27,888 nucleotides of DNA from a virus, in IMG/VR virus record IMGVR_UViG_3300042339_000576, positions 1 to 27,888 of that record. The stretch is one strand, 5' to 3'. The notes under the pieces were generated by a model that worked only from the letters and a program-made list of their open reading frames with translations, searched no databases and was not told where the DNA came from. Positions within the stretch are counted from its first letter, which is position 1; every line of letters starts with the position of its first letter. The position numbers were made by a program, and so were the translations under genes. Below, piece after piece: positions 14,761 to 26,873 of the stretch.

Positions 14761-15489
14761 CTATCTTTTAATTGTTTTTGCCCAAAAGGGGTCATTTACA
14801 TCATCCATTATATCACCATCATCTAAAAACTGGTCATACAACTTAACTTGTGTTTCTTTCATTTTAGCCACAACCTTCGTAATGTAGTGTGTTTTATGAC
14901 CTGTCATTTCTCTTACCAAAAGATATAAAGACTTCTTATTGAAACTTTCTATATACTCTGCTCTACGAAATAACTCTAAAATAGAATCTGCAATTTGAAT
15001 ATCTCTTTTCTTTGTAAAAATACGATTTAGATTCTCATCCCAATATTGAAGCATTCTATTGTTAAATATTTTGAACTCTTCATTATGTTGTGTTTCTTTA
15101 AAATCATTTTCAGGATTCCAATTCTCTGGCATCTCTGAAATCTTTGATGTACTTTTATATCGTTTGTAGTTTGAGTTGTTATTTAAGATTAAATAGTTTC
15201 TAACTGCAATCGTAAAGTATGAGAATGCTTTTCCTTTATCTTGTTGGTATTTGTGTATTTTTTCCAATAAGAAAGAAATAACTTCTTGTTTCGTATCTTC
15301 TTTATCATCATCAAAGTAAGTAAATTTCCAAGTATTTAAAACATTTTCCGCTAACTTATAAAAAGAATAGTAGATGTGGTCTCTAAACAATAAGTTTCGT
15401 TCTCTTTCGCTTGATGAGTTATTATACGCTATAATAGCAGCTTCGGTTTCTTCCGTAAAGTAACGGGTATCTTTTTTCTTCCTTCCCAC
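14761..15489 (-). CDS. gp55: Late-transcription sigma factor, T4 gp55-like
   Basis: gp55-type factors direct host RNA polymerase to phage late promoters, acting in T4 with the sliding clamp and gp33. The N-terminal pattern FTEETEAAIIAYNNSSSERE, then FYKLAENVLNTWKF, followed by DTKQEVISFLLEKIHKYQQD and AFSYFTIAVRNYLI, matches the gp55 core (sigma region 2-like). The length is 242 residues against 185 in T4. The C-terminus (DPFWAKTIKR) does not obviously carry the T4 clamp-binding tail. The start is a GTG that overlaps the stop of the previous gene (TAGTG). A GAGGAGGA stretch upstream is part of the Lys/Glu codons of that gene and may or may not help initiation. A terminator follows the stop codon immediately. 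Confidence 0.88.
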   Translation of the reverse strand: MGRKKKDTRYFTEETEAAIIAYNNSSSERERNLLFRDHIYYSFYKLAENVLNTWKFTYFDDDKEDTKQEVISFLLEKIHKYQQDKGKAFSYFTIAVRNYLILNNNSNYKRYKSTSKISEMPENWNPENDFKETQHNEEFKIFNNRMLQYWDENLNRIFTKKRDIQIADSILELFRRAEYIESFNKKSLYLLVREMTGHKTHYITKVVAKMKETQVKLYDQFLDDGDIMDDVNDPFWAKTIKR

Positions 15490-26493: not shown

Positions 26494-26628
26494 TTATCTA
26501 CCTTGACCTCTATACTTTTTAGGCTTTTCTTCGTATTTACTATACGATTTCTTTGCCTTTCCTTTTGTTCTTTTGCCGAAAGTTACCTTTTTATTACCAG
26601 TTCCAGCACTCACTTTAGCTTTTGCCAT
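26494..26628 (-). CDS. Small, highly basic protein (44 aa)
   Basis: The 44-residue frame starts MAKAKVSAGTGNKKVTFGKR and ends KPKKYRGQGR. Sixteen of 44 residues are Lys or Arg, and there is no hydrophobic segment, so binding to nucleic acid or to acidic capsid surfaces is plausible. I recall short phage proteins with FGKR...GKAKKS and a C-terminal YRGQGR in uncultured phage genomes, not verified here. It lies 2 bases before the GTG of the 460-residue gene and 46 bases after a strong terminator. A TATTTATA motif lies 27 bases before the ATG. Confidence 0.7.
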   Translation of the reverse strand: MAKAKVSAGTGNKKVTFGKRTKGKAKKSYSKYEEKPKKYRGQGR

Positions 26629-26655: not shown

Positions 26656-26663
26656 TATAAATA
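26656..26663 (-). promoter_or_regulatory. Candidate phage late-promoter motif TATTTATA
   Basis: An exact coding-strand TATTTATA lies 27 bases before the 44-residue gene and 10 bases after the terminator, so transcription of the 44- and 460-residue genes probably restarts here. No host-type promoter is present in this gap. Confidence 0.45.
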
Positions 26664-26673
26664 TCGTAGACAC

Positions 26674-26706
26674 AAAAAAAGTAGTAGATAAAATCTACTA
26701 CTTTTT
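26674..26706 (-). terminator. Strong rho-independent terminator
   Basis: A perfect 14-base stem (26676-26689 with 26693-26706) has a 3-base loop. On the minus strand the core GTAGTAGAT/ATCTACTAC is followed by seven T residues, and on the plus strand by five, so it can act in both directions. It ends the candidate noncoding RNA. Confidence 0.92.
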
Positions 26707-26733
26707 GATAATCGAGTTAAACATAAAATCTTT

Positions 26734-26815
26734 GTACGGGAGGTTGGTGGGGTTTGGGTTTCGTTTCTTTGGGAGTAACTATGGACCAAATATATAATCC
26801 CCACCAACATCGTAC
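26734..26815. repeat. GC-rich inverted repeat forming a long stem
   Basis: The arms are 26734-26738 with 26811-26815 (5 base pairs) and 26743-26752 with 26799-26808 (10 base pairs), separated by internal bulges of 4 and 2 bases and a 46-base loop. All 15 pairs are perfect Watson-Crick. It is the core of the candidate noncoding RNA. Confidence 0.85.
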
Positions 26816-26842
26816 TTTATCGTAACCTTAATTTGTATAAGT

Positions 26843-26873
26843 CAAAGATACGAAAATTTATTCACTAAACAAA
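26843..26873 (-). promoter_or_regulatory. Bacteroidota-type promoter of the candidate noncoding RNA
   Basis: The minus strand shows TTTG (26870-26873), a 19-base spacer and TATCTTTG (26843-26850), a full consensus match. The next gene with a credible start lies 215 bases away, beyond a terminator, so the promoter is likely to serve the RNA itself. Confidence 0.85.

Follow-up and report, generated by a model that had tools for sequence, protein, structure and literature searches.

A predicted small RNA on the minus strand of the window (the whole stretch of 27,888 nt analysed here, a 27.9-kb fragment of a phage genome) carries in its loop a segment, CCAUAGUUACUCCC, which is the exact complement of GGGAGUAACUAUGG; in each of the two long relatives of this phage (195 and 148 kb), the latter comprises the Shine-Dalgarno-like element, the spacer and the AUG of the same orthologous gene. 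Judged from sequence and conservation, the RNA is probably a trans-encoded antisense regulator, made by the host RNA polymerase, that would block translation of a lysis-type membrane protein. The first-pass annotation had proposed at this place a noncoding RNA with a host-type promoter and terminator, and this part of it is supported, at the level at which sequences can support it; the roles suggested there (regulation of host functions, action as a decoy, counter-defence) are not those to which the evidence leads, the loop being matched to the translation start of a gene that belongs to the phage group itself.

The transcription unit and its conservation

The phage represented by the window has T4-type baseplate genes, and nearly all of its large genes lie on the minus strand. 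It was compared with four related IMG/VR contigs, L004 (195 kb), L005, L006 and L007 (148 kb); the 195-kb relative is also referred to as G001, and the two long relatives as G001 and G002. Searches with the stem pattern and with the loop pattern found the promoter, the RNA and the terminator in all four, in the same place as in the window. One of the four exact matches to the stem pattern among viral contigs, L003, proved to be a chance palindrome in an unrelated phage and was rejected. The features of the locus are as follows.

26870-26873, minus strand: TTTG, the -33 element of a Bacteroidota-type promoter (match to the consensus of PMC6847099)
26843-26850, minus strand: TATCTTTG, the -7 element of this promoter, common to the five phages
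26676-26838, minus strand: predicted small RNA of about 165 nt, its ends placed from the promoter and the terminator
26811-26815, minus strand: 5' arm of the outer stem, GUACG (from the fold)
26799-26808, minus strand: 5' arm of the inner stem, GUUGGUGGGG (from the fold)
26763-26791, minus strand: invariant block of 29 nt in the apical part, AUUUGGUCCAUAGUUACUCCCAAAGAAAC, identical in the five phages
26771-26787, minus strand: antisense element, GGUCCAUAGUUACUCCC, in which the final 14 nt (26784-26771) exactly complement GGGAGUAACUAUGG
26743-26752, minus strand: 3' arm of the inner stem, CCCCACCAAC (from the fold)
26734-26738, minus strand: 3' arm of the outer stem, CGUAC (from the fold)
26676-26706, minus strand: intrinsic terminator with a 14-bp stem, a 3-nt loop and a T run (from the pairing and a compensatory change)
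26656-26664, minus strand: ATATTTATA, late-promoter-like motif of the next gene, outside the RNA (from motif enrichment)
26494-26628, minus strand: downstream gene for a basic protein of 44 aa (MAKAK...), found in many phages devoid of the RNA

The elements described earlier are present, and the strand, absent from the first-pass annotation, is minus for all of them. What had been described as a full-consensus promoter indeed agrees completely with TTTG/TANNTTTG, the consensus published for Bacteroidota, the last G of which is numbered -5 (PMC6847099); TTTG and TATCTTTG are separated by a 19-nt spacer, and the same numbering places the predicted transcription start at about 26838. The two long relatives contain more promoters of the TTTG/TANNTTTG class than expected (28 against 5.4 and 23 against 3.6). 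The terminator of 14 base pairs was likewise found as described, its pairs lying between 26706 and 26676 with T's thereafter; terminator-like sites number 2 in 2.4 kb, against 0.6 expected from shuffling, and in L005 a compensatory change turns a U-A pair of the terminator into C-G. The whole unit folds with a z of -5.1, none of 200 shuffles being as good, and with a z of -2.4 when the terminator is left out. At the sequence level, it thus has the promoter and terminator of its own that are expected of an independent transcription unit.

The outer and inner stems are parted by an AU/CUCC internal loop. The stem of 15 pairs (5 outer and 10 inner) reported previously is present in the window, but its perfect pairing does not extend to every relative, the inner stem of L007 having one U-U mismatch, one G-U pair and an inserted G which adds a pair. 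The search for compensating changes in the arms, recommended by the first-pass annotation, gave no covariation support in a comparison of the five phages, the mismatch and the G-U pair of L007 resulting from two changed bases; since the main stem hardly varies, it provides no covariation test. The patch between the 29-nt block and the stem differs among the five phages in both length and letters.

Across the four relatives, identity of the RNA to that of the window amounts to 86-96%, that of the neighbouring 44-aa gene to 77-92% and that of the upstream intergenic DNA to 77-100%. In L004, the RNA (91%) exceeds both the gene (85%) and the intergenic DNA (77%), whereas in L007 its conservation does not exceed theirs; protein identity of the next gene is just 51-53% in L004 and L005. 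Outside this group, no copy bearing the loop pattern was found in the cellular genome contigs searched, and INPHARED contained no relative of the RNA among isolated phages. A covariance model, the other check proposed earlier, revealed no convincing RNA in 63 other related records, many of them fragments; none of its four weak matches (E 0.4-0.9) shows any of the loop. When RNAs with a changed loop were sought by way of the conserved 3' portion, the search gave no contigs other than the four relatives compared here.

That the unit could not be assigned to a known family by the first-pass annotation agrees with the lack of any Rfam match at gathering cut-offs, and the GOLLD model (RF02032) scores it at 10.9 bits against a family cut-off of 150. 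A likeness to 6S RNA was considered and dropped, as the promoter-like TANNTTTG of the window loop is not kept in L004, L006 and L007.

Two readings in which the structure would not act as a separate RNA have to be weighed here. The structure lies directly upstream of the 44-aa gene with the terminator between them, and it could on that ground be taken for a cis-acting leader, an attenuator or a riboswitch, of this gene; yet the gene has its own late-type motif, ATATTTATA, situated between the terminator and its start, most phages with the gene are devoid of the RNA, and no alternative antiterminator pairing is apparent by eye, so that neither a tie to the downstream gene nor the dependence on read-through typical of such elements was found, and we consider this reading very unlikely. 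That the unit encodes a short peptide instead of acting as an RNA is scarcely credible: each of the five sequences has a frame that starts from an ATG near the stem, but in L007 it meets a stop at codon 7, and in the window it shifts register and passes through the terminator, and all positions of the loop block are conserved, including the silent ones. The earlier statement that the region holds no credible gene is in agreement with these stops and shifts of the RNA-strand frame in the relatives. Because the downstream gene often occurs without the RNA and has its own motif, we read the RNA, most simply, as a separate unit that would be served by the host polymerase.

With regard to the motif of the neighbouring gene, ATATTTAT(A) is enriched about 7-9 fold within 70 bases upstream of open reading frames in G001 and G002 and is a candidate late promoter motif; a 242-aa gene of the window (14761-15489), matched by no library, is reminiscent of a gp55-like late sigma factor.

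Complementarity to a distant translation start

On the contigs of the two long relatives, the RNA and its putative target are 71-153 kb apart. The duplex has 17 bp, 14 of them Watson-Crick and 3 G-U pairs, and covers the GGGAG element, the spacer, the AUG and a part of the second codon. GGGAGTAACTATGG has exactly one further perfect copy in each long relative; both copies have the orientation required of a target, and both are at the start of one and the same gene. The target gene lies outside the window fragment, and we assume that the phage of the window carries it beyond this fragment.

The loop was scanned against the start regions of all open reading frames of at least 45 aa in the two genomes (465 and 364 frames), and, the antisense strand of the RNA itself being set aside, the target gene ranked first in both, with duplex energies of -26.6 and -26.5, the means being about -9. 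The predicted duplex of -25.1 kcal/mol remains favourable after the costs of opening the RNA (about 5) and the mRNA (2.6-4.0) are considered. The pairing region is conserved and accessible, and the RNA is encoded away from the target, with a short complementarity near its translation start, as is expected of trans-encoded base-pairing small RNAs.

How often such a match would arise by chance was estimated with shuffled loops. A 14-nt complement shared by the start regions of both genomes was obtained with 7 of 20,000 of them, and with 0.7% of shuffles in which CCAT and CTCCC were held fixed, the two long genomes being related, so that they do not count as two independent observations, and showing no covariation of loop and site between records. 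The observed best energy was reached by 1 of 80 and 3 of 80 dinucleotide-shuffled loops in the two genomes, and by 3 of 80 in each when CCAU and CUCCC were kept. The best duplex energy in a genome is alone weak evidence, and it is therefore the exact-match statistic that carries the argument.

The mRNAs of Bacteroidota are normally devoid of Shine-Dalgarno sequences. In the two long relatives, a Shine-Dalgarno-like 4-mer is present at only 20 of 203 and 12 of 161 open reading frames of at least 100 aa; since few frames have even a 4-mer, the strong element of the target is unusual. Among 79 homologs of the target which were compared, GGGAGTAACTATGG occurs in 12 of the 12 closest orthologs (85-100% identity) and in none of the 67 more distant ones, most of which have no Shine-Dalgarno-like element; the leaders of three of the latter (L187, L192 and L212) are of the GGAGTAA type. 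L178 differs in the base that immediately precedes the 14-mer, but not in the 14-mer itself. The site is found in a single clade only, to which the two records with both loci belong; these come from related phages. In sample 3300027754, the RNA and the site were found on two separate contigs, L006 and L179. Ten other contigs bear the site; the RNA locus is outside their coverage, and absence of the RNA from them is uninformative because its neighbour gene is missing there too.

Leaders like AGGAGTAA also precede further genes, and phages devoid of the RNA have them too; part of the match could be a matter of shared leader style. Such leaders, of the form AGGAGTAA(C), were noted upstream of a MAKAK-type gene in L151 and L152, and at the homologs of the target in L187, L192 and L212.

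The target gene and the proposed regulation

The target gene encodes a protein of 99 aa, which begins with MGFFK(D/E)LFDDDNNINEKSVVGFASFG... and, according to its hydropathy, has two hydrophobic segments and a charged tail, features which, together with the small size, are also those of holins. Its AlphaFold model consists of two long helices at low confidence (mean pLDDT 60). No family profile names the protein, and since none of the holin profiles matches it, we call it a lysis-type membrane protein, a description drawn from its sequence features and gene neighbours, and refrain from classing it among the holins. The homolog in Flavobacterium phage immuto, gp192, has a GH19 endolysin gene directly after it and then a holin gene; in L218, the homolog is followed by a small membrane protein and then a GH19 endolysin. 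In the RNA-bearing phages, the endolysin is encoded elsewhere, and the target belongs to a cluster which comprises membrane proteins, secreted proteins and a class-3 lipase.

The gene set of this cluster is unusual for a phage. In L172 (9060-11543 and 1006-7839), it includes a TonB-dependent-receptor-like outer membrane protein of 827 aa, the class-3 lipase and secreted proteins of large size, which match cohesin and C-type lectin weakly. In G001, the target is directly followed by a gene for a homing-type endonuclease (HNH_3 and NUMOD4; L157, 723-1178, minus strand), which is absent from this position in G002.

In the mechanism that we propose for this T4-type phage of Bacteroidota, the host RNA polymerase would transcribe the RNA from the host-type promoter, and the GC-rich stem would display the loop with GGUCCAUAGUUACUCCC. 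Early in infection, this loop may pair over 17 bp with the distant mRNA of the same phage, occluding its start region and keeping ribosomes off, so that the small lysis-type membrane protein would be held down until late. Relief could come late in infection, as the target mRNA accumulates and outruns the RNA. It is possible, and we put it forward tentatively, that such a phage times its lysis by a dedicated trans-acting RNA, and that its target gene has gained a GGGAG start which would mainly be a landing site for it.

Other partners of the loop could also be imagined. The RNA might repress more broadly, pairing with several phage mRNAs of a small late regulon that have GGGAG near their starts, the membrane protein being one member only. 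A second orthologous gene of the target's cluster, with GGGAGAAATTATGAG, gives -23.1 and -22.5 (rank 4 and rank 2) and its leader is kept in four phages, while a 530-aa gene with GGGAGGCATTATGG scores -23.8 in G001; these duplexes are interrupted, however, and an unbroken 14-nt match including the spacer occurs in one gene only, which makes the regulon unlikely in our opinion. The partner might instead belong to the host, be it an mRNA, a small RNA or a protein, with the match to the phage gene a coincidence. Pairing with the target explains just a part of the invariant 29-nt block, and the scan covered phage genomes; nevertheless, the low chance odds of the shared 14-nt match and its placement exactly on the start codon render a host partner improbable. 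The second cluster gene (L172, 512-1006), with GGGAGAAATTATGAG at its start partly complementary to the loop, is a possible second target.

Relation to known phage RNAs

Few phage RNAs act on lysis genes, and the one against an endolysin listed in a 2025 review is cis-encoded (PMC12197685): PAK_P4as15 of Pseudomonas phage PAK_P4 is an antisense RNA of about 550 nt that fully overlaps its target, the endolysin gene. It resembles the antisense RNA proposed here in being encoded by a phage and in its presumed action, repression of the translation of a lysis gene with a delay of lysis; the window RNA differs from it in being about 165 nt long, structured, and located 71-153 kb from a lysis-type gene of another kind. 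The sar RNA of P22 and the c4 RNA of P1 and P7 control antirepressors of temperate phages (PMC12197685), and they too are phage antisense RNAs whose complementary segments, placed in loops in c4, block synthesis of a phage protein; here, in contrast, the T4-type phage seems to be virulent, and the putative target, a small membrane protein, is encoded at a distant locus. These RNAs are the nearest phage relatives in function, and none of them is both encoded at a separate, distant locus and directed against a lysis-type gene. In type I toxin-antitoxin systems with a trans-encoded RNA, such as IstR-1/TisB, translation of a small hydrophobic protein is prevented by pairing of the RNA with its mRNA. 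The window RNA would likewise pair with such an mRNA, but RNA and target do not form an adjacent addiction module, and the target is in a lytic phage gene cluster.

No trans-encoded phage RNA directed against a holin-like gene was found in the literature searched, most subscription journals lying outside it. If the proposed function is true, large phages would have a further layer of lysis control, exerted by a trans-encoded RNA on a defined 17-bp target, and Bacteroidota would provide a case of a regulatory RNA made by a phage whose partner can be named.

GOLLD RNA (RF02032), a large structured phage noncoding RNA found near tRNA genes, occurs in the 195-kb relative, and its sequence and structure are unrelated to those of the window unit. 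Both long relatives have a near-complete set of tRNA genes (about 25; L252, 1651-9670, corresponding to about 41.6-49.7 kb of G001, and L267), and G001 encodes GOLLD RNA (294 bits) together with a tmRNA (RF00023). Host-type promoters of the form TTTG-N19/20-TANNTTTG are situated upstream of several tRNA genes of G001 and of its tmRNA.
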